Shown here in pieces: positions 11,274-26,672 of a stretch of DNA of 64,000 nucleotides. The notes beneath the pieces were generated by a model. The model was not told the DNA's origin. It searched no databases and saw only the letters and a list, made by a program, of their open reading frames with translations. Where the stretch lies: positions 186,001-250,000 of the forward strand of contig NZ_ATSX01000002.1 in the NCBI RefSeq assembly GCF_000527695.1. Reading direction: 5' to 3'. Positions within the stretch are counted from its first letter, which is position 1. Each line of letters begins with the position of its first letter. The translations under genes were made by a program, and so were the position numbers. This DNA is from Commensalibacter papalotli (ex Servin-Garciduenas et al. 2014) (GTDB lineage Bacteria > Pseudomonadota > Alphaproteobacteria > Acetobacterales > Acetobacteraceae).

Positions 11274-12056
11274 TTATAATGAATCATTATTATTTTTATA
11301 TGTATTCATATATTTTTCTAACTCTTTCCATTGAGACTTAACGATATACGTATTCCTTAAATAAAAAAGAGACCATTTATGCATTTTTTTTCCAAAAGAA
11401 TCTAAATTACTATTTTTTGCTTTGTATTGTTGAATGTCTTCCCATAATTCATCTCTATCAAATCCCATCCATATAGGCGGGATAGGTGAACAAAGATTAG
11501 GGTAACAAACAGGTGCTACCCATTCAAAATAAACCTTTTTAACATGCTCAATGGGGAAACGATTTGAAACAGGCGCAATGTAAATAAAATCAGTTTCGCT
11601 ATCTGTAAATATGTCTGACAAGGATTCACATAAATCAATATCTGTATAAACCTTACCCTCCATATTTTTTGCTTTTCTATAATATTTTAATGCTTCAAGT
11701 TGTTTTTTTAACTCCATCCATTGGCGTTGATATTTTTTTCTTAAATAGTAAACTAAATATTTATGCCGTATTTTATAAAAAGAAAATTTTTTATTACATT
11801 TTTCTTCATATTCTCGAATGTTTTTCCACAATATTTCTCTATCCAAATCTACCCAAGCTGATGATAATATATTACGAAAGTAAGAATAATATACTGGTGC
11901 AACCTCTTCAAACAACATTTCCTCTACATATGTAGTAGAAGTATATTGTGCAGCAGAAACAATATATGAATAGTTAATTTTTTGATCTATAAAGAAACCT
12001 AATAACACCTTATACAAATCTTTTTTTAAATCAATATGGATTAAGGATTTATCCAT
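11274..12056 (-). CDS. Two-copy domain protein, putative immunity protein (DUF7079-like pattern)
   Basis: A 260-residue soluble, lysine/tyrosine-rich protein made of two related halves. Copy 1 (about 10-125) contains FEEVAPVYYSYF, WVDLDREILWKNIREYEEKC and YLRKKYQRQWMELKKQLE. Copy 2 (about 140-255) contains YFEWVAPVCYPNL, WMGFDRDELWEDIQQYKAK and YLRNTYIVKSQWKELEKYMN. The pattern S-DIF-D(T/S), EVAP, W-GFD, L--I resembles DUF7079-type proteins as I remember them; this needs a profile search. No signal peptide or membrane segment. It overlaps the upstream glycine-zipper gene by 16 bp and is last in the cassette, the usual place of an immunity gene. Function is inferred only. Confidence 0.5.
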   Translation of the reverse strand: MDKSLIHIDLKKDLYKVLLGFFIDQKINYSYIVSAAQYTSTTYVEEMLFEEVAPVYYSYFRNILSSAWVDLDREILWKNIREYEEKCNKKFSFYKIRHKYLVYYLRKKYQRQWMELKKQLEALKYYRKAKNMEGKVYTDIDLCESLSDIFTDSETDFIYIAPVSNRFPIEHVKKVYFEWVAPVCYPNLCSPIPPIWMGFDRDELWEDIQQYKAKNSNLDSFGKKMHKWSLFYLRNTYIVKSQWKELEKYMNTYKNNNDSL

Positions 12057-12919
12057 TTTGTTAATTCCTCTAGTTCATCATCCAACATCTCGGCCGCAAA
12101 GTAACCATAAATTCCTCCAACAAAAGCACCAGTACTAACTGTAACCAAGGCACATGCTGGGGCTGCAGGTCCACATAATGGATCTACCATTGCCCCTGCG
12201 GCTGCTCCACCAGCAATACCCGCACCGATTCCTATTCCTTGCCTCATCGCTTCTTTCAACTTATTCTCTGCAGTCGCAATATCATATGCCGCCAGAGCTA
12301 CCGATGCAACAAGTGTTACTTTTCCTAATAATTGCAAACGTTTTACTCGAAGCGTAGTCGCTTTATCAGGTCGAGCCGAGGCTTTTCTGACCTCCTCAAA
12401 AACATCATTTTGTTGGATCTCTGACAAATTAATAAAATCTTTCTCAAATTTTTTCTGTGAATACTTTTGAAAAAAGTAATCAAGTGACCTTCCCTTCGAT
12501 TTAGTTCGTGTTGCTTTTGCCAAACCATATTTAGAAGTGTAGTCTCTATGCAATTCCATAGTTTCATTTCTCATATAGCTACACCAAGCAGCACCCTCTT
12601 CTGAAGAAATTATACCGTCATCAACCATTTTGGTAACCTCTGCAAGCACTCTCTCTACATTTCGCTGATAAGATAACCTTACTCTATCATCATTCATTGT
12701 ATCTTTTGAAAATTGTAATGCCGCCCCTAAAAACCCAGCTTTTGCTTGGTTAAAATAAGAAGACTCTTCCACCAATCTTTTCAACCTATCATGAACTGAA
12801 GGTTTTTTAAATAACTCTTGAAACGGCGGTTTTGTAAATTTTTTATCCCATGGTTCTACATTATCTTGAGGCAAAGACTTTTGAAATTTTCTTTGCCATT
12901 CAGGTATAGCGTTCATCAT
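12041..12919 (-). CDS. Putative pore-forming effector with C-terminal glycine zipper
   Basis: A 292-residue protein with no signal peptide. The first 190 residues are charged and helical (NVERVLAEVTKMVDDGIISSEEGAAW, then the basic stretch KATRTKSKGRS). The C-terminal third has LGKVTLVASVALAAYDIATAENKL (hydrophobic helix), then a Gly/Ala zipper GIGIGAGIAGGAAAGAM, a CGPAAPAC turn and a second helix VSTGAFVGGIYGYFAAEMLDDE. This helix-zipper-CGPxxPxC-helix layout resembles the C-terminal domain of contact-dependent/T6SS-type pore-forming toxins. A stop 16 bp inside the next gene couples it to the putative immunity gene. It could instead be a phage membrane protein. No PAAR, RHS or VgrG domain is visible. 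Confidence 0.5.
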   Translation of the reverse strand: MMNAIPEWQRKFQKSLPQDNVEPWDKKFTKPPFQELFKKPSVHDRLKRLVEESSYFNQAKAGFLGAALQFSKDTMNDDRVRLSYQRNVERVLAEVTKMVDDGIISSEEGAAWCSYMRNETMELHRDYTSKYGLAKATRTKSKGRSLDYFFQKYSQKKFEKDFINLSEIQQNDVFEEVRKASARPDKATTLRVKRLQLLGKVTLVASVALAAYDIATAENKLKEAMRQGIGIGAGIAGGAAAGAMVDPLCGPAAPACALVTVSTGAFVGGIYGYFAAEMLDDELEELTKWINP

Positions 12920-12936
12920 TGAATCCTTTTCTACAA

Positions 12937-13536
12937 TTAATTTTCTGTATTGCTATCCGCATTAATGACATCCATCACGATTTCTTTGGCGCTGTCTGCA
13001 CAAACACCAAATTCTGGGTGATATTCGAAATAGCTCACCACAAAGCAAGAATCATCATATTGATCTTCGGCATTAATCGAGAATTTTTCGATTTTCACAT
13101 CGTCACAATAAAGGGGAAATAAAATATCACTATATTGTTCAAATTGTTCCGTTGCCCAGGCGTCATTAAACCTGACGGTAAAGGCTTTGGCCATTTGCAA
13201 AGCAGCAATATTTCCTGTACCTACAAAAGTCACATTCATTGTAATTTCAGATCTGGCCCATAAAATCTTATGTTTATCAGTATAACGTGTTTCTGTAGTC
13301 GACAATTGATTTTCATCAATCACTTGCAACACAACATAAGGTGGTTTAGGCGGAGAAACCCTGTTCACCAATCCTTTGATGATTTTTAATTTAGCTCCCT
13401 TAATCGGAATGGCTTTTTGTAAAAATTTACCCACTAAATTATACATTTCTTTGTAAGATAATGTTTTTAATTCTGAAAATTCTTGATCTTTAGGAGCTTT
13501 GGCTGTTACTTTGGCTGGTGTTTTCTTGGTTGTCAT
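12937..13536 (-). CDS. Phage neck/tail-completion-like protein (LIC_12616-like)
   Basis: A 199-residue protein with a Lys/Ala/Pro-rich N-terminus (TTKKTPAKVTAKAPKDQ) and a globular body. The body includes PPYVVLQVIDENQLSTTETRY, SEITMNVTFVGTGNIAALQMA, FNDAWATEQF, LFPLYCDDVKIEKFSINAEDQYDD and YFEYHPEFGV. This spacing of a Y-VLQVI, F-G-N-AA-A and NAEDQYDD-type motif recalls the LIC_12616 phage neck terminator family; I cannot run the profile. The frame extends to 13632, but the upstream part translates a terminator hairpin, so ATG 13536 with AAGAAAG upstream is preferred. It is 17 bp before the putative effector. No other tail gene is present. Confidence 0.5.
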   Translation of the reverse strand: MTTKKTPAKVTAKAPKDQEFSELKTLSYKEMYNLVGKFLQKAIPIKGAKLKIIKGLVNRVSPPKPPYVVLQVIDENQLSTTETRYTDKHKILWARSEITMNVTFVGTGNIAALQMAKAFTVRFNDAWATEQFEQYSDILFPLYCDDVKIEKFSINAEDQYDDSCFVVSYFEYHPEFGVCADSAKEIVMDVINADSNTEN

Positions 13537-13569
13537 TTGATTGATCTTTCTTATAATAATAATGAAGAC

Positions 13570-13597
13570 ATAAAAAAAGACGCAGCTATGGCGTCTT
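13570..13597 (-). terminator. Leftward terminator hairpin 1 before the accessory cassette
   Basis: AAGACGC (13577-13583) and GCGTCTT (13591-13597) form a 7-bp stem with a 7-nt loop, followed on the minus strand by seven T. It sits only 34-61 bp upstream of the start at 13536, inside any leader of the cassette. Confidence 0.8.
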
Positions 13598-13632
13598 GAT
13601 TGAAGTATTTTCTTGATTTGGAAAATTGGCAT

Positions 13633-15985: not shown

Positions 15986-17050
15986 TTATTTTAAATTACG
16001 AACAGTATTTACCAGTTCATAAACATGTTCAACAGGCGTTGTTGGAAGAACACCATGTCCTAAATTAAGGATATGCCGTCTATTTTTTAATTCAAGACAT
16101 ATATTGTGAACTTCTTGTTGCAAAACGTTTGGATTATGCAATAAACATAAAGGATCAATATTTCCTTGAAAAGCTATTTCTGGATTAATTGTTTTATTGA
16201 GTAAGGTAATATCAGCAGTTTGATCAATCCCAACTGTTTTTAATCCTGTTCCATCAATATAAGATTGCAATTTCGTTCCTGCTAAACGAGGAAAACCAAT
16301 AATAGGAATATGAGGGTATTTTTGTTGAATTGCTTCAACAATTTGGCGTGTTGGTTGAATAACATATTCATTAAATAAAGAGACAGGTAATAATCCACCC
16401 CAACTATCAAATAACTTAACAGCTTCAGCACCAGCTTCAATTTGACGACAAAGATAATCGGTCGTTGTTTGAACAAGTAAATTTATAATTTTCTTAAATA
16501 AAGTGGGATTTTCATACATCATCTTAAAGACATTACCAAAATCCTTAGAACTTCCTCCTTCAACCATATAACAAGCAACGGTAAAAGGTGATCCTGTAAA
16601 CCCAATTAAAGTTACCGTCTTCGCTGCTGCTGTTCCAATTGAGTCTTGACCATTTATAATTTTATTTAATCGTCTTATTGCTTCTAAAACAGGCTCTGTT
16701 TTTTCTTCTATTTGATTTGGATTAAGTTTCTGTAAATCTTGTTCTGATTGAATGGGAGGTAATACAGGTCCTTTTCCTTCAATAAATTGTAAATCTTGTC
16801 CCAAAGCCCAAGGTAAAATTAAAATATCTGAAAATAGAATTGCTGCATCAAAAGCAAATCGTCGAATAGGTTGTAATGTAATTTCCACAGCGATATCAGG
16901 TGTTAAACAACGTGTTAAAAAATCAGCTTGTTGCCTTAAGAGCCTAAATTCTGGTAAATATCTTCCTGCTTGTCTCATTAACCAGACAGGAGGTGGCCAC
17001 ACAGATTGACCATTAAGAACGGTTAAAAGTTTTTTGTTTGTTGAGGACAT
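15986..17050 (-). CDS. hemE: Uroporphyrinogen decarboxylase
   Basis: Decarboxylates uroporphyrinogen III to coproporphyrinogen III in the cytoplasm. The 354-residue protein has the signature PPPVWLMRQAGRYLPEFR near the N-terminus, the catalytic Asp in ILFSDILILPWALG, GFTGSPFTVACYMVEGG, LFDSWGGLLPVSLF and LNLGHGVLPTTPVEHV near the end. It is first in a leftward hemE-HAD-hemJ-dehydratase unit. In Caulobacter and Rickettsia the replication origin lies just upstream of hemE, which makes the unusual region at 17051-17542 of interest. Confidence 0.97.
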   Translation of the reverse strand: MSSTNKKLLTVLNGQSVWPPPVWLMRQAGRYLPEFRLLRQQADFLTRCLTPDIAVEITLQPIRRFAFDAAILFSDILILPWALGQDLQFIEGKGPVLPPIQSEQDLQKLNPNQIEEKTEPVLEAIRRLNKIINGQDSIGTAAAKTVTLIGFTGSPFTVACYMVEGGSSKDFGNVFKMMYENPTLFKKIINLLVQTTTDYLCRQIEAGAEAVKLFDSWGGLLPVSLFNEYVIQPTRQIVEAIQQKYPHIPIIGFPRLAGTKLQSYIDGTGLKTVGIDQTADITLLNKTINPEIAFQGNIDPLCLLHNPNVLQQEVHNICLELKNRRHILNLGHGVLPTTPVEHVYELVNTVRNLK

Positions 17051-17542
17051 TAAGGAAACTTTCTGTTTATTTTTTTCATTTGTTTTTTCTCTTTTACAAG
17101 TTTAGCAAAAGTTTTCCTTTTTTACATTCCCTTAAAAAATAAAAAGAAAATTTAACTTTATAGTGTTTGTTTATTGTTGCCTGTTAGTACTGTGGTACCC
17201 AGCTTTCAAAAAATGTACCCCATTTTTATCACAGAGTGTACAGTTTTTAACAGATTGATTTTATTTAACAAAACTGAGTTATCCAGATATTATCATCCTA
17301 CCCCTGTGTACAACTCACTGAATTCAAAAAAGAGAGTACAATCCCCAGTACTCGGTACCCCTATCTTTTTACTGTCGTACAATCCCCATGTACCTCAATG
17401 TACCACAGACACAAATACAAGTTATACTTACTTAAAAATTATTATAGAATCGGTTTTAAAATATGAATTAGGTTTGATTTAAAGAATTCTTTTTTGCTAC
17501 AAGATAAAGATCATAGTGAAAATAAATAAAAGGATATTCGAT
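17051..17542. other. Gene-free region upstream of hemE with dense GTAC motifs
   Basis: 492 bp between the divergent hemE and AhpD-like starts. A 102-codon frame (17174-17482) is present but has no convincing ribosome-binding site or domain, and its length is explained by the unusual repeats. The stretch holds the GTAC cluster at 17187-17403 and one DnaA-box-like TTATCCAGA (17279-17287). It may be a control region for hemE, a replication origin or something else; the sequence alone does not decide. Confidence 0.6.
17187..17408. repeat. Cluster of eleven GTAC tetramers with longer repeats
   Basis: GTAC occurs at 17187, 17195, 17215, 17238, 17308, 17336, 17348, 17355, 17377, 17390 and 17400. 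Fewer than one would be expected by base composition. The 12-mer GTACAATCCCCA occurs twice in direct orientation (17336-17347 and 17377-17388, 41 bp apart). CTGTGGTAC (17190-17198) and GTACCACAG (17400-17408) form a perfect 9-bp inverted repeat that brackets the cluster. Confidence 0.85.
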
Positions 17543-17983
17543 ATGAGTATAAAGCGCATCAATCAATATAAAACAGCGCCTGTGATGATGAAGGCTATGA
17601 TGGATCTTGAAAAAACAACTCATGAATCTATTTTACCTCTTTCTCTAAGAGAATTAGTAAAAATCCGCGCTTCTCAATTAAATAACTGTGCGTTTTGCTT
17701 GAATATGCATACTAAAGACGCTTTAAAAGCTGGTGAAGAAATTAATAGATTAATGGCAATTAGTGTATGGAAAGAAAGCTCTTTTTTTACAGATCGTGAA
17801 CGTGCTGCATTATTATGGACTGAAACATTAACTTTATTGTCGGAAAAAGAAGCTTCAGATGAGATATATCAAAAAGTTTCGGATCAATTTAATGATCAAG
17901 AGCTAGCAGAATTAACTGTTATGATTGCAGTTATTAATGCATGGAATCGTTTTGGTGTTGGTTTAGCTATAAAAGCAGAATAG
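17543..17983 (+). CDS. AhpD-like / carboxymuconolactone decarboxylase family protein
   Basis: A 146-residue alkylhydroperoxidase-like (CMD family) protein. The redox motif NNCAFCLNMH supplies Cys49 and Cys52 with a following His56, and LRELVKIRAS and ERAALLWTETLTLL are family blocks. It probably acts as a cytoplasmic thiol peroxidase or disulfide reductant; the true substrate is unknown. ATG 17543 has AAAGGA 8 nt upstream and fits MSIKRINQYK; an upstream ATG at 17516 adds nine poorly conserved residues. It is transcribed alone, away from hemE. Confidence 0.88.
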   Translation: MSIKRINQYKTAPVMMKAMMDLEKTTHESILPLSLRELVKIRASQLNNCAFCLNMHTKDALKAGEEINRLMAISVWKESSFFTDRERAALLWTETLTLLSEKEASDEIYQKVSDQFNDQELAELTVMIAVINAWNRFGVGLAIKAE

Positions 17984-19954: not shown

Positions 19955-20734
19955 TTAAGACATAAACATACCACCATCAATATTGATGGTTTGACCCGTT
20001 ACATAAGCTGATTGCGGTCCTGCCAAGAATGAGATAACATTTGCGACATCTTCGCCTGTACCTGCACGACCCATAGGAATTTTTGATACCCATTCAGCCA
20101 TTAATTCGCCTGGTTTATAATTCCCTAACATTTTTCCCCAATGCTCATCATTATATGCCCACATATCAGTTTCGATTATTCCTGGGCAAAAAGCATTTAC
20201 AGTAATACCTTCTTTGGCAACTTCGTGTGCCAAGCTTTGCGTGATCCCCATGACTCCGAATTTACTGGCTGCATAATGAGGGGTATAAATAAATCCTTGG
20301 CGTGCTTGACCAGAGGCAGTATTAATTAAACGTCCACCTTGACCATGTTTACGAATTCTAGCAATAGCTTCCTGGCAACATAAAAAGACACCTGTCGTGT
20401 TCACATCTAGGACTTTTTTCCATTCTTGCTCGGTCAGATTTTCAATCTTAGCAATAGTAATCACCCCTGCATTTTGAACTGAGATATCGACACGACCAAA
20501 TTGTTCTTCGGCAAAATCGTATAAACGAATAACGTCCTCTTTGTTCGTTACGTCCATTTCAAAAGCAACAGCTTGGCCGCCATTTTTATTAATACGCTCG
20601 GCAACTTCATTTACTTTGGCTTCATTGGATGCAACTACAACTTTGGCACCATCTTTTGATAAACGTTCTGCAATCGCTGCACCAATACCACGACTTGCGC
20701 CTGTAATAACAGCAACTTTATTTTGTAAACTCAT
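19955..20734 (-). CDS. SDR dehydrogenase, polyol/ketose type
   Basis: A 259-residue short-chain dehydrogenase. Cofactor motif TGASRGIG (11-18), NAG at 88-90, catalytic Ser141, Tyr154 and Lys158 (YAASK), PGIIETDMW after the active site and a C-terminal INIDGGMFMS. After the second strand it has VVVASNE, without the acidic residue expected for strict NAD use, so NADP use is possible. It closely resembles sorbitol/galactitol/2,3-butanediol-type SDRs. It is the last gene of the polyol island, 49 bp after the transporter gene. It probably oxidises a polyol or reduces its ketose. Confidence 0.85.
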   Translation of the reverse strand: MSLQNKVAVITGASRGIGAAIAERLSKDGAKVVVASNEAKVNEVAERINKNGGQAVAFEMDVTNKEDVIRLYDFAEEQFGRVDISVQNAGVITIAKIENLTEQEWKKVLDVNTTGVFLCCQEAIARIRKHGQGGRLINTASGQARQGFIYTPHYAASKFGVMGITQSLAHEVAKEGITVNAFCPGIIETDMWAYNDEHWGKMLGNYKPGELMAEWVSKIPMGRAGTGEDVANVISFLAGPQSAYVTGQTINIDGGMFMS

Positions 20735-20783
20735 GGGATCTCTCCTCTAAACTATGTAAAAATATTAATAAACTAAAAATTAA

Positions 20784-22067
20784 CTAACTCTTTGCCACTA
20801 TTGGGGGCGAAGCAGGATTATTCTCATCCTTTTTTTTGATAAAACTACGGTGGTCAATGTTCACAAAAGCCATCACAATAGCTGCTGAGAAATAAAGAGC
20901 TGCATAAATCCAAATAACACCAACAGCACCAATAGAATGAATAAATATGCCAACAATACCTGGGCCAAAGAATGTACTGAGACCAGCCGCAAGGGTTAGT
21001 ACAGACATCGCAGCACCTTTATTTTCTGGTGCCAACATTGGCATAATCGCATTGATTGGAGTATAAGCAGCCAGACAGGCCCCATATGCACATGCTGCAA
21101 GCCAAGTTACAAAATATCCACCGCCCCATGTAGGAATATAGAAGAATAAAAGTGTTGTTAATCCACAACCAACACATCCTCCCCATGCAACAGTATTTTT
21201 CCAACCCCATTTATCACCCAACATTCCCCAAAAATAATTGGTAATCATATTGGTAATCCATAATGAAGCAAGCATTTGTAGCCATTGACTAATCGTAAAC
21301 CCTAAATTTTGTAAAACTAGGGGTAAGAAAATCGGAAAACCATAACTTGCAAGCGTATTGACTATTCTGACATAACCACACAGCCCAAGTTTAGGAACTT
21401 CGAAAATAATCGTAATTCCTTTAAGCAAATATAAAATAGATGTTTTTTCTTCAGAATTTGCTCTTTTCTTAGATTTAATAGCATCTTTATCGACTAATAG
21501 TGCAATAGCTCCGCCTAAACAAACAAAGACTAAGGCACTCCACAACACGTGGATTTCGGTCATAAATTTAAGTGTAACGCTGGAATACATCACCCCAAGC
21601 ACACTTAAACCACAAGCATAACATGACCAGAAAATACCACCTGCTGTTGAAAGTCTATCTACTGGTGCTTCATAAGTCACATATACTAGGAATCCATAAA
21701 CAAACAAAGGATAACTTAGTCCTCTTAACGCATAAGATGGCAACATCACTGCAAAATTATGACTTGGAATACCAAACGTCAAAAAGAAAAAGGAGCCAAT
21801 ACAGAACATAATCAATCCTGCAAACATAACGCGTCTGACACCAAACATTTCTGTTAAAACACCAGAAAGAAATGCTGAAAAAGAAGCTGTTAATCCATAC
21901 ACACTAAATAATAAGGATGATTGTTCAATCGATAATCCATTTTTAATGAGATAAGGAGATAACCATCCTTGTTCTAGCCCTTCACCAGCCATAAAAATCA
22001 TCACACCTATGTATCCCAACATTAATTTTGGCGTGATAAATACCTTTTCTACAAAACTACTCCACAT
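20784..22067 (-). CDS. MFS polyol transporter, RbtT/DalT/CsbX type
   Basis: A 427-residue inner-membrane symporter with 12 hydrophobic segments. The N-terminal IGVMIFMAGEGLEQGWLSPYL and the GVRRVMFAGLIMFCIGSFFFLTFG block are typical of the RbtT/DalT/CsbX group, which contains ribitol and D-arabitol transporters. It lies between the two SDR genes and is most likely the polyol importer of the island. The charged C-terminal tail (KKKDENNPA) is cytoplasmic. A spacer of 189 bp with a hairpin separates it from the upstream SDR gene, so it may have its own promoter. Confidence 0.85.
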   Translation of the reverse strand: MWSSFVEKVFITPKLMLGYIGVMIFMAGEGLEQGWLSPYLIKNGLSIEQSSLLFSVYGLTASFSAFLSGVLTEMFGVRRVMFAGLIMFCIGSFFFLTFGIPSHNFAVMLPSYALRGLSYPLFVYGFLVYVTYEAPVDRLSTAGGIFWSCYACGLSVLGVMYSSVTLKFMTEIHVLWSALVFVCLGGAIALLVDKDAIKSKKRANSEEKTSILYLLKGITIIFEVPKLGLCGYVRIVNTLASYGFPIFLPLVLQNLGFTISQWLQMLASLWITNMITNYFWGMLGDKWGWKNTVAWGGCVGCGLTTLLFFYIPTWGGGYFVTWLAACAYGACLAAYTPINAIMPMLAPENKGAAMSVLTLAAGLSTFFGPGIVGIFIHSIGAVGVIWIYAALYFSAAIVMAFVNIDHRSFIKKKDENNPASPPIVAKS

Positions 22068-22192
22068 AATTATCTCCTGTTTCTTTACAAGATAATGTAG
22101 AGTTTATAGCCGTTTTTCTAAAAAGAAGACGCAACTTCCCCTTCAAGAATAATTTGGTTTTAAAACACATATTCTTGTCCCTTTTAAGGTAA

Positions 22193-22226
22193 AGCTGTTT
22201 ATATTTTATTTAAAAAACAGCTTTAT
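22193..22226. terminator. Hairpin inside the polyol operon
   Basis: AAAGCTGTTT (22193-22202) pairs perfectly with AAACAGCTTT (22217-22226). It lies 31 bp past the SDR stop at 22257 in a 189-bp gap before the transporter start. No T-run follows on the minus strand, so it may tune expression or stabilise mRNA rather than end it. Confidence 0.5.
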
Positions 22227-22256
22227 GTATTATTATGATTTTGATCTACAAAAGGC

Positions 22257-23021
22257 TTACCAACAGCAGAATCCACCATCGACCAGTAAATTAACGCCTG
22301 TGCAAAAAGATGCTGCTTCGGATAATAAGAATATTGCTGGCCCAGCCATTTCATCAGGATCGGCAATACGTTGCATCGGTGTTTCTGATGCAAATTGCTT
22401 CATTTGGTTAACCATTTCAGGACGTGTATTCATTGGCGTTGCGGTATATCCTGGGCTGATTGTATTAACACGTACACCTTTTTCTGCCCATTCCATTGCC
22501 ATACTTTTACTCATATGAATAACAGCTGCTTTGGCAGAATTATAATGTGCTTGCATCAATCCACGATTAACAATCACACCAGACATAGAAGCAATATTAA
22601 CAATAGCCCCTTTACCATGTTTTAGCATTATCCGTGCTTCTGCTTGGCAAGATAAAAAAACACCTTTAACATTGATGTCATACAAACGTTGCCATTGTTC
22701 CAGCTCCATTTCCTCGACCGGATTAGCATTCGCAATTCCAGCGGCATTTACCGCTAAGGATAAGTTCCCTAATTTTTCATCAACAGCTTTTACTGCTTCA
22801 GCCAAATCATTAGGATTGGTAACGTCCCCTGTTAATGCAATAGCTTTACGGCCTAGTTTTTCGATTTGTGCAATCGTATCTGATAAGCCAGCACTGTTAG
22901 GTAAATCAAAACATCCTACATTAGCCCCAGCTTTAGCAAGATTAACGGCAATTCTTTGTCCAATTCCGCTTCCTGATCCTGTTACAAAAGCGTTTTGACC
23001 TGCAAGAGAAAAAAGTTCCAT
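22257..23021 (-). CDS. NAD-dependent SDR polyol dehydrogenase
   Basis: A 254-residue short-chain dehydrogenase. Cofactor motif TGSGSGIG (14-21), Asp39 after the second strand (FDL) favouring NAD, NAAG at 92-95, Ser145, Tyr160 and Lys164 (YNSAK), PGYTATPMN and a C-terminal DGGFCCW. The GFCCW tail is typical of D-arabitol/xylitol/threitol-type SDRs. It lies between the kinase and transporter genes and is the best candidate for the first oxidation of the imported polyol to a ketose. The exact polyol is not determined. Confidence 0.86.
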   Translation of the reverse strand: MELFSLAGQNAFVTGSGSGIGQRIAVNLAKAGANVGCFDLPNSAGLSDTIAQIEKLGRKAIALTGDVTNPNDLAEAVKAVDEKLGNLSLAVNAAGIANANPVEEMELEQWQRLYDINVKGVFLSCQAEARIMLKHGKGAIVNIASMSGVIVNRGLMQAHYNSAKAAVIHMSKSMAMEWAEKGVRVNTISPGYTATPMNTRPEMVNQMKQFASETPMQRIADPDEMAGPAIFLLSEAASFCTGVNLLVDGGFCCW

Positions 23022-23061
23022 AATTGTATTCCTTTATAATAAATATTCTCTTTAACAAATA

Positions 23062-24543
23062 TTAGATAGAATATAGCTGACGGGATTGGTTAACGGCTTT
23101 ATGCCACTTTTCTAAATCAATGTTCTGTTCATCTTGCTGTGATTTTGGTTCAAACAAATCATAAGCTCGATTGAGTTTATCTAAACCTGCTTGAGTCCAA
23201 ATTTCTTCGGTTAACCCTGCCATATAAGCAACCCCCAAAGCTGATAATTCTGGTCTTTCTGCTCTAAATACAGAACAATTCAGTATCTGTGCTTGTAACT
23301 GCATCAAACCGTCATGACTGGTTGGTCCACCATCTACAAAAAGTTGATGAATTTCACCCACATTACGACGAATAGCATTTACTACGTCCGCAACTTGATA
23401 AACCACACTGTCTATAGTAGCTCTGGCCAAAGTCTGCCTGCTGGTTCCGAGGGTCAAATTGGTAATTAAACCAACTGCTTTTTCATCCCACCAAGGGGCA
23501 CCCAGCCCTCCAAAACCAGGAACTAACACAACAGAGTCACTTTGACTTTTCATACCCAATTCAACGAGTTCAGTCACAGAAATATCCAATATTCCTGCCA
23601 TCCAACGTAAGGTAGCTCCTAAAGAGCGAATGTTTCCTTCAGCAGCATAAGCAATCTTATCACCAGTTTTCCAACCAATGGTTAAACATAAACCAGAATG
23701 CAGCTCGTCTTCTTTACGAATAAGCCCCATAATTGAAGAGCCTGTGCCATAAGTTGCTTTGACTTGCCCAATATTAAATGCTTGATGTCCAAATAAAGCA
23801 GAATGACTATCTCCCATTACTGCACCAACAGGAATTTTTAATGGACCCAAAGATTGTTTGATCTCTTTTGGAAAAGGACCATTAGAAGAAATAACTTTAG
23901 GTAAACATGCTCTCGGCACATCAAATAAGGCCAGTAAGTCATCGTCCCAATCACATTCATGAACATTGATTAATTGAGTACGTGATGCATTGCCTGCTTC
24001 GATTAAATGCTCGCCATAAATGTTGAATAGCAACCATGAATCAATTGTACCAAGGCAGAGCTCACCCTTCAAAGAGCGATTACGGTCTTTATCATAATGA
24101 TCTAATAACCATTTACCTTTAGATGCAGAAAACATGGGGTCCAAAGGAAGGCCTGTAAGAAACTTTACCTTGTTCTGCACAGCTTCATCTGAACATTTTG
24201 ATGATAAATCGACTTGGCGTTGATCTTGCCAAGAAATTAGCGGATGCAATGGTTTCCCTGTCTGGCGATCCCATAATAGAAAAGATTCTCGTTGTGTGCT
24301 GATCCCGGCAACAATAACATCAGCAGCTATATAACCATTAGGCAAGTTTTCAAGTGTTTTAGAAACAACCTTTCCTACACTTTGCCAGATTTCCTCTCCG
24401 TCTTGTTCAACGTGACCGGGAAAAGGATGGGTTTCCCCAATTTCAATCTTACCACACGCAATAATTTTACCTTTGTAATCAACAATAACGCACTTTGTAG
24501 AGCTGCTACCTTGATCAATGGCCAGAACTAATGGATCGCCCAT
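23062..24543 (-). CDS. FGGY-family carbohydrate kinase
   Basis: A 493-residue ATP-dependent sugar kinase. The N-terminal LAIDQGSSSTKCVIVD (Asp10) is the phosphate-1 motif; ISTQRESFLLWDRQTGKPLHPLISWQDQR resembles glycerol kinase. GAVMGDSHSALFGHQ, YGTGSSIMG and VDGGPTSHDGLMQLQAQIL are the C-terminal ATP and sugar motifs. Glycerol kinase similarity is strong, but the neighbouring dehydrogenases and transketolase point to a ketose such as xylulose or erythrulose. It is 4 bp downstream of the transketolase C gene, so co-translated. Confidence 0.88.
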   Translation of the reverse strand: MGDPLVLAIDQGSSSTKCVIVDYKGKIIACGKIEIGETHPFPGHVEQDGEEIWQSVGKVVSKTLENLPNGYIAADVIVAGISTQRESFLLWDRQTGKPLHPLISWQDQRQVDLSSKCSDEAVQNKVKFLTGLPLDPMFSASKGKWLLDHYDKDRNRSLKGELCLGTIDSWLLFNIYGEHLIEAGNASRTQLINVHECDWDDDLLALFDVPRACLPKVISSNGPFPKEIKQSLGPLKIPVGAVMGDSHSALFGHQAFNIGQVKATYGTGSSIMGLIRKEDELHSGLCLTIGWKTGDKIAYAAEGNIRSLGATLRWMAGILDISVTELVELGMKSQSDSVVLVPGFGGLGAPWWDEKAVGLITNLTLGTSRQTLARATIDSVVYQVADVVNAIRRNVGEIHQLFVDGGPTSHDGLMQLQAQILNCSVFRAERPELSALGVAYMAGLTEEIWTQAGLDKLNRAYDLFEPKSQQDEQNIDLEKWHKAVNQSRQLYSI

Positions 24544-24547
24544 GATG

Positions 24548-25492
24548 CTACCTCGCTAATTCACAAGCAGACTTAACAATATTTTCTACACTTAGCCCAA
24601 AATGGTCTAATAAAAATGATGCAGAACCTGTTGGCGCAAAATGTGAAACGCCTAAAATTCGCATCTTGGTTGGATGATGCTCAACAACTACCTCGGCAAC
24701 TGCTGCGCCCAAACCACCCGTTGTGATGGCTTCTTCCATAGTTACGATACCACGCGTTTGACTGGCCGCAGCAAGAATGGCTTTTTTATCCAATGGATTA
24801 ATCGTGTGCATATTTAAAACTCTGGCTGAAATGCCTTGTTGTTCCAATAAAACTGCGGCCTCTAAAGCACGAGGAACGAGGATACCTGTTGTAATCAACG
24901 TAACATCTTTTCCCTCTTTTAAAACCAATGCTTTACCCACTTCAAAAGGGGCATTATTTGGTGTGGTCTGAGGAATTTTAAAGCGATTAATACGCATATA
25001 AACAGGTTTATTTGCTCTAACCGCCCAAAGAATTGCATCCTTAGTTTGCTTAGGGTCAGCAGGGCTTAGCAATGTAATATCTGTTAATGCTCGGATCCAA
25101 GAGAAATCTTCGATAGAGTGATGGGTTGGCCCCAATTCTCCATAAGACATTCCAGGGCTTTGCGCACATAAAATAATTGGATACATATTATATGCAACGT
25201 CAGCCTTAACCTGTTCCAAAGCACGACCACTTAAAAAAGGTCCAGCACAGCTTACAAATGGAATAAAACCACTATTGGCCAGCCCTGCGGCAACTCCAAT
25301 CATATTTTGTTCAGCGATACCGACATTAATTAAACGATCTGGGAATTCTTTTTTAAAATCATTTAAATTAGATGAACCAACAGAGTCATTACAAACAGCG
25401 ACAATACGCTCATCTTGACGAGCCAACTCTATTAAGGTTTCAGCAAATATTTTGCGACAATCAAATGTTTCTTGTTGAGATAAAGACGTCAT
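24548..25492 (-). CDS. Transketolase, C-terminal subunit (split)
   Basis: Carries the pyrimidine-binding and C-terminal domains of a two-gene transketolase, 314 residues. Recognised features are DRLINVGIAEQNMIGVAAGLA with the catalytic Glu of the PYR domain, GPTHHSIEDFSWIRAL and the C-terminal domain blocks ALVLKEGKDVTLITTG and VTMEEAITTGGLGAAVAEVV. It overlaps the N subunit by 4 bp (ATGA), so both are made in equal amounts. Split forms occur in sugar operons and in some archaea and Firmicutes. It works on a ketose phosphate made by the kinase. Confidence 0.93.
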   Translation of the reverse strand: MTSLSQQETFDCRKIFAETLIELARQDERIVAVCNDSVGSSNLNDFKKEFPDRLINVGIAEQNMIGVAAGLANSGFIPFVSCAGPFLSGRALEQVKADVAYNMYPIILCAQSPGMSYGELGPTHHSIEDFSWIRALTDITLLSPADPKQTKDAILWAVRANKPVYMRINRFKIPQTTPNNAPFEVGKALVLKEGKDVTLITTGILVPRALEAAVLLEQQGISARVLNMHTINPLDKKAILAAASQTRGIVTMEEAITTGGLGAAVAEVVVEHHPTKMRILGVSHFAPTGSASFLLDHFGLSVENIVKSACELAR

Positions 25493-26337
25493 GAGTGTGT
25501 TAACTCCTTAATAGCTTGGATATTTTGTTCGGCAGAAGGAACTTTGTGATGCCATTCCACTCTATTTTCAATAAAGGAGACCCCTTTTCCTTTGATTGTG
25601 TTCGCGATAATAACTTTGGGTTTACCTGTAGAAGGAGCTTCCATAACTTTTAATAATTCTTCAAAACAATGCCCGTTCAGCTCATACGTATCCCAACCAA
25701 AAGCACGCCATTTATCTGCTAAGGGATCAAGTGAATTGGTATCTTCGGTGCCTGCACCTTGTTGTAAGCGGTTACGATCAACAATGGCCATTAAATTGCC
25801 AAGCTTACGATGGCCTGCATACATTGCGGCTTCCCAATTAGAGCCCTCTTGTAACTCACCATCTCCTAATATAACAAAAGTTCTATATGATTTTTTTGCT
25901 AACTTTGCTCCAATTGCACATCCGACCCCGATAGGTAATCCATGACCTAATGGGCCTGTATTCGCTTCAATACCTGAAAGTTTACGGCGATTAGGATGCC
26001 CTCCTAAAAAAGATAAAGGCTTCATAAAATCACCCAGCTGTTCATGTTTGAAATAGCCAGCTTTGGCCATCACAGAATATAAAGCTGCTGCACAATGCCC
26101 TTTTGATAGAATGAATCTATCTCTGTCTGCCCAATTTGGATCTTGTGATTTATAGTTCATCACGCCAAAAAATAAGGAAACTAAAATATCAGTGACAGAA
26201 AAGTCACCCCCAATATGCCCCATCTTTGCCGCGGCAATGGTATTCACGATATCAACACGAATTTCAGAAGCAATTTGACTTAACTTTAGCAGGCGATCCT
26301 TGTCATTATTATTCAAAACCTCTTGAACTTTAGCCAT
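25489..26337 (-). CDS. Transketolase, N-terminal subunit (split)
   Basis: Supplies the thiamine-diphosphate PP domain of the split transketolase, 282 residues. Motifs are KMGHIGGDFSVTDIL, DRFILSKGHCAAALY (His81), NTGPLGHGLPIGVGCA and the TPP/Mg motif GDGELQEGSNWEA (158-170) with VDRNRLQQ. The ATG follows a strong GAGGTGG site. It is the first gene of the leftward polyol transcript and has an operator-like inverted repeat 29-73 bp upstream. With the C subunit it would connect ketopentose phosphate to glycolysis/pentose phosphate intermediates. Confidence 0.94.
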   Translation of the reverse strand: MAKVQEVLNNNDKDRLLKLSQIASEIRVDIVNTIAAAKMGHIGGDFSVTDILVSLFFGVMNYKSQDPNWADRDRFILSKGHCAAALYSVMAKAGYFKHEQLGDFMKPLSFLGGHPNRRKLSGIEANTGPLGHGLPIGVGCAIGAKLAKKSYRTFVILGDGELQEGSNWEAAMYAGHRKLGNLMAIVDRNRLQQGAGTEDTNSLDPLADKWRAFGWDTYELNGHCFEELLKVMEAPSTGKPKVIIANTIKGKGVSFIENRVEWHHKVPSAEQNIQAIKELTHS

Positions 26338-26365
26338 TTAACCACCTCAAATAACAAATCAATTT

Positions 26366-26410
26366 TATATATGAATATTTATTCACATAGTGATAATTTA
26401 TTCATATATA
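26366..26410. promoter_or_regulatory. Operator-like inverted repeat before the polyol operon
   Basis: TATATATGAATA (26366-26377) and TATTCATATATA (26399-26410) form a perfect 12-bp inverted repeat with a 21-nt spacer. Inside it TGAATA-TT-TATTCA (26372-26385) gives a compact second palindrome. On the minus strand TGAATAAAT occurs twice, 21 bp apart. It lies 29-73 bp before the transketolase start and downstream of a possible -35 TTGACC (about 26430-26435). A SorC-type repressor site is the simplest reading. Confidence 0.6.
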
Positions 26411-26672
26411 GATATGACCTTTTAAAATGAAATTGGTCAAGAAAATATCTAATAAATAACGATGTTGTGAATATATGGTATACATCATACTATATAAAAA
26501 GAATTAGAATCCTTTATTAAGCGATTATACTTTTTGTGGAGTTTTTCAAACTAATGCACAGTTTGTCGAAGAGAGGTGATTGTGTAATATCCATTCAGTT
26601 AATGTGCTATAATCGATTTTACATCACGATATAGAAATAAATTCGCTGTATTTCTGTAACTCTAACAATAAC

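Follow-up and report, generated by a model that had tools for sequence, protein, structure and literature searches.

A fixed-spacing GTAC array beside hemE at the very probable chromosomal origin of acetic-acid bacteria, and its candidate RsaI-type methyltransferase

Methylation-timed origins of replication are known from Dam in the gammaproteobacteria, and in Caulobacter CcrM methylation is tied to the cell cycle. Both enzymes modify adenine at the N6 position. The E. coli oriC contains 11 GATC sites in about 245 bp. A different tetramer, GTAC, is the recognition site of RsaI. The cognate methyltransferase, M.RsaI, makes N4-methylcytosine (m4C) at GTAC, as reported from SMRT sequencing (PMC6256690). 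The origins of Caulobacter and Rickettsia share a hemE-COG1806 arrangement (PMC1914354). For the origin of the acetic-acid bacteria, the papers found in the open literature offer dnaA- or skew-based predictions only, and one published prediction for A. pasteurianus puts oriC close to dnaA (PMC3751514). Neither the array reported here nor GTAC methylation in acetic-acid bacteria was described in the open literature searched.

Here we describe in silico an array of GTAC sites next to hemE in a Commensalibacter genome (Acetobacteraceae; 2.33 Mb), its conservation and spacing, its position on the GC-skew curve, its co-occurrence with an orphan methyltransferase, its absence from lineages nested among the carriers and the unchanged recognition helix of DnaA. 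The window is the whole stretch of DNA that was analysed, 64 kb in length. The features of the region are as follows.

15986-17050, minus strand: hemE (uroporphyrinogen decarboxylase), flanking gene; Pfam PF01208.
17051-17542, no strand: intergenic region between hemE and the carboxymuconolactone-decarboxylase gene, putative oriC; conserved in 8 other genomes of the genus and at the skew minimum in closed relatives.
17111-17186, no strand: A+T-rich stretch (78% AT), by composition and conservation a candidate unwinding element; it holds an A-rich AAAATAAAAAGAAAATTTAA-like block that is conserved.
17187-17403, no strand: array of 11 GTAC, proposed methylation sites; spacing conserved in genus and family.
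17195-17311, plus strand: family-wide fixed-spacing core of the GTAC at 17195, 17215, 17238 and 17308 (20, 23 and 70 bp); in 106 of 397 family genomes, once each.
17279-17287, plus strand: TTATCCAGA, DnaA-box-like, one mismatch to TTATCCACA; conserved in 9 of 9 genus genomes.
17336-17347, plus strand: GTACAATCCCCA copy 1, GTAC with a weak DnaA-box-like ATCCCCA; from the sequence and genus alignment.
17377-17388, plus strand: GTACAATCCCCA copy 2; ATCCCCATGTACC is conserved family-wide.
17447-17451, no strand: GAATC, the only GANTC (CcrM-type) site, bordering the array and kept throughout the genus.
17543-17983, plus strand: gene of the carboxymuconolactone decarboxylase family, flanking in this genome; Pfam PF02627.

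The open reading frame listed for the last gene begins with a GTG at 17516; the ATG at 17543 is preceded by an AAGGA motif. Plasmid-borne copies of the region were looked for and none were found. Elsewhere in the window, positions 11274-13632 of the minus strand hold a phage-tail-terminator-like gene, a gene for a protein whose C-terminal stretch is glycine-rich and hydrophobic, and a third gene containing two DUF7079-type segments. This set may be read as a prophage remnant or as an effector/immunity-like set.

The first-pass annotation had counted 11 GTAC within 217 bp where less than one would be expected. All 11 are present (17187, 17195, 17215, 17238, 17308, 17336, 17348, 17355, 17377, 17390 and 17400), and the density of the window itself predicts approximately 0.24 in such a span. 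GTAC is under-represented in the window as a whole (71 observed against approximately 107 expected from shuffles), so the array is more striking than first estimated. Among all tetramers in the 64 kb, none forms a more extreme cluster (Poisson 3e-15). When 64 kb were simulated 200 times under a second-order Markov model, no cluster held more than five sites, and a chance cluster was rejected. Overlapping triplets (three nearby GTAC) were sought throughout the genome and occur at no second place. The duplicated 12-mer noted earlier lies at 17336-17347 and 17377-17388; its second copy (ATCCCCATGTACC) is kept across the family and the first copy is conserved more loosely. The 9-bp inverted repeat said to bracket the array has its arms in this genome (CTGTGGTAC and GTACCACAG). 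It is not a family feature, as the arms of relatives differ (GGGGTACCC on the left, GTACCCCA on the right), and it was rejected as a functional feature for lack of conservation beyond the genus.

As in the Dam/SeqA system of E. coli, the putative origin is packed with a palindromic tetramer that is interleaved with weak DnaA-like boxes, and a candidate orphan methyltransferase is inherited with the chromosome. The tetramer is likewise enriched in the origins: across 17 origins of the clade, located through hemE, the enrichment is 6.9-fold for GTAC and 1.9-fold for the next palindrome. The differences are that the tetramer is GTAC rather than GATC, that the spacing is nearly fixed and that the candidate enzyme is a beta-class PF01555 protein of the SPPY type, predicted to modify cytosine at N4 rather than adenine at N6.

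The comparison with Caulobacter Cori rests on the orthologous hemE flank and on CcrM, which is also encoded in this genome. Here, in contrast, there is a single GANTC, a GTAC array is added and the other neighbour is the carboxymuconolactone-decarboxylase gene. In family members that lack the array, the neighbour of hemE is a gene whose N-terminal sequence resembles COG1806, as in the Cori arrangement. The CtrA site TTAA-N7-TTAA was searched for in 17050-17535 and none was found, so a CtrA-controlled origin was rejected.

Conservation in relatives was the first ground on which the array could have failed. Within the genus the region adjoins hemE in 8 of 8 other genomes, with 75-88% identity and 10-12 GTAC at matching spacings. 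For the family, the scan pattern consisted of four GTAC and their spacing alone (20/23/68-74 bp). It matched 106 of 397 genomes in 24 genera, with one match per genome. In a class-wide alphaproteobacterial sample of 385 genomes, matches fell only in the family and none outside Acetobacteraceae. A named collection gave at least 119 matches with a GC content of 28-63%, in genera including Acetobacter, Gluconobacter, Komagataeibacter, Gluconacetobacter, Asaia, Bombella, Novacetimonas, Neokomagataea, Saccharibacter, Acidomonas and Commensalibacter. In the GC-rich genera the GTAC positions are kept and the remaining sequence has diverged. By sequence comparison, the array is an ancient element of fixed spacing. 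Three basal family genomes with the methyltransferase (L221 of G131, L218 of G187 and L047 of G025) have 5-6 GTAC near hemE that do not follow the fixed spacing and may represent an incipient array.

The intergenic region next to hemE is very probably the chromosomal origin of the acetic-acid bacteria and their insect-gut relatives, as judged in silico. The replication role suggested by the first-pass annotation is supported: the region is conserved, adjoins hemE and falls where the GC skew of closed relatives reaches its minimum; in these relatives skew does not place the origin elsewhere. The cumulative minimum lies at or next to the array in the closed relatives G008, G033 and G021, the curves being drawn from spaced stretches rather than entire genomes. 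The array of G008 is at 24 kb and the minimum between 20 and 98 kb. In G033 the array is at 1.874 Mb and the sampled minimum between 1.76 and 1.865 Mb. In G021 the skew changes sign at 611-612 kb, within approximately 1 kb of the array at 610.9 kb. The draft window itself has a local sign change at 17 kb and is mostly positive afterwards. A strongly negative block at 20000-26500 interrupts the positive side, and its genes are on the minus strand where open reading frames are listed (20-23 kb). This block is possibly an insertion or inversion near oriC. By composition, the 78% AT flank qualifies as the A+T-rich element of an oriC.

The dnaA gene lies at 995 kb in G008, 602 kb in G033 and 1965 kb in G021, about 1.0-1.4 Mb from the array. 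It is distant from the hemE origin in these three genomes and also in G101 and G131; in the last, the positions are 1.6 kb for hemE and 189 kb for dnaA. The origins predicted near dnaA in acetic-acid bacteria may be misplaced.

The genome encodes two PF01555 methyltransferases, CcrM and an orphan of 290 residues (G000:C3:1060040-1060909). Like CcrM, the orphan is a beta-class PF01555 enzyme of the same genome. It is a distinct protein (290 against about 375 residues) with an SPPY motif and another predicted site. CcrM was rejected as the enzyme of the array: it occurs throughout the family, in carriers and non-carriers alike, and the region has one GANTC. The orphan occurs in 170 of 397 family genomes and, at the threshold used, in none outside Acetobacteraceae in the class-wide sample. 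Both array and enzyme are found in 106 genomes, the enzyme alone in 64, neither in 227 and the array alone in none. The enzyme is thus present in 106 of 106 array carriers, which are not 106 independent observations because both are inherited by descent. Basal family members have the enzyme without the array, which suggests that it first had another role. In 27 of 30 loci the orphan is next to mltA, and no RsaI-like nuclease was found nearby. In this genome (L130 1450-3543, contig C3) it is directly downstream of mltA.

The TSPPY motif is present in all but one aligned homologue of the orphan. This form is associated with N4-cytosine enzymes, and the best PDB matches of the orphan are N4-cytosine methyltransferases. 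Homologues occur in two diverged cyanophages, Syn19 (44.7%) and ACG-2014j (46.2%), directly 3' of genes annotated 'R.RsaI endonuclease'. On the 'R.RsaI' annotation, comparison of the phage nuclease with PDB, Pfam, PHROGs and plasmid homologues gave just a generic PADLOC type II nuclease match. We infer from this homology and from the annotations of the phage neighbours that the orphan methylates GTAC, and the methylated base is probably N4-methylcytosine. The enzyme would resemble the RsaI restriction-modification and cyanophage enzymes, to which it is homologous at the 45-46% level, in predicted site and base. Unlike RsaI, it has no endonuclease partner, is chromosomally fixed next to mltA and is associated with an origin.

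A tree of DnaA and HemE places the array carriers, two genomes with a degenerate array (6-8 GTAC) and three enzyme-less genomes in one clade, with 100/99 support. Within it, G097 and G061/G147, which lack the enzyme, sit on long branches next to array carriers, and a tree that joins them to the remaining enzyme-less genomes of the family was rejected (p-AU 4e-6). They have 0-1 GTAC upstream of hemE. This scarcity is expected if GTAC has importance only in the presence of the methyltransferase. The skew minimum of G097 is still near hemE, and its 500 bp upstream of hemE (L207) contain 14 perfect TTATCCACA boxes and no GTAC. In G147 there are nine DnaA boxes within one mismatch upstream of hemE. 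The neighbouring mltA is missing from these lineages too, so the loss may be that of an operon in shrinking genomes; mltA and the methyltransferase are both absent from G097, G061, G147 and G012. The enzyme-less lineages amount to one or two loss events, too few for a test. Two independent pairs separate array and enzyme on supported branches (sign test, p 0.5).

We consider it probable that the region is an oriC whose GTAC sites are methylated by an inherited RsaI-type orphan enzyme and that the mark delays re-initiation. The vertically inherited methyltransferase would target the GTAC of oriC, with GTA-m4C as the predicted product. Firing of the origin would leave the sites hemimethylated, and re-initiation would be delayed until they are remethylated. 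The delay could arise from a direct effect on the binding of DnaA to the weak DnaA-like boxes that alternate with GTAC, or a putative SeqA-like reader could mediate it. In either case the methylation mark would control initiation. For the broader proposal the balance is even: that N4-cytosine methylation of the array times replication through a domesticated restriction-type enzyme, as an independent invention of the Dam/SeqA kind that differs in enzyme, base and reader, and reversibly, the enzyme-losing lineages having rebuilt the origin with consensus DnaA boxes.

The bases around GTAC are conserved beyond the need of a pure methylation site (GGTACCC, TGTACCCC, TGTGTACAAC), and an alternative of low probability is a protein that recognises GTAC within its sequence context. 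These flanks and the near-fixed spacing would suit a multi-site complex, in which the region is an oriC, GTAC are the binding sites of a dedicated origin-binding protein (an initiator helper or repressor) and the methyltransferase plays no part. That the RsaI-type enzyme is in every carrier, that the nested enzyme-less lineages lack the array and that GTAC is the element common to sites with differing flanks make this reading unlikely. Cooperative binding by a protein, as suggested earlier, is a less probable reading. Methylation sites are favoured over one unknown binder because of the tetramer itself, the enzyme in every carrier and the absence of the array where the enzyme was lost.

The intergenic region (17051-17542) contains one TTATCCAGA, the DnaA-box-like site named by the first-pass annotation, and weaker ATCCCCA-type sites. 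Nearly all array origins have no perfect DnaA box and 0-3 with one mismatch. This poverty in consensus boxes, set beside the 14 of the array-less G097, and the resemblance of ATCCCCA and TTGTACACA (one change from TTATACACA) to DnaA boxes could mean that GTAC sites are lineage-specific DnaA boxes. We regard this as distinctly improbable. The DnaA recognition helix (RDHTTVMHA) is identical in carriers and non-carriers, and a changed DnaA specificity was rejected on that account. Most GTAC sites (GGTACCC, AGTACTCGGTAC) misfit the box, and a palindromic tetramer is unlike an asymmetric 9-mer.

The other role offered by the first-pass annotation, a heme- or iron-responsive region controlling hemE, draws on the position upstream of hemE and on palindromes that suit dimeric regulators. 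It is very improbable and finds no support, because the array coincides in position with the switch in skew, has no second copy in the genome and none at another gene, and persists though the gene on the side opposite hemE varies between genera. Chance, or plain common descent with no function, is scarcely credible for GTAC positions that are kept from 28% to 63% GC in 16 named genera while the intervening sequence has diverged.

The GTAC array offers a diagnostic by which oriC may be located in Acetobacter, Gluconobacter and Komagataeibacter. If the reading of GTAC as methylation sites is true, a GTAC/N4-cytosine counterpart in this large family of industrial use would add an independent case of a methylation-timed origin, with natural loss mutants at hand for comparison.
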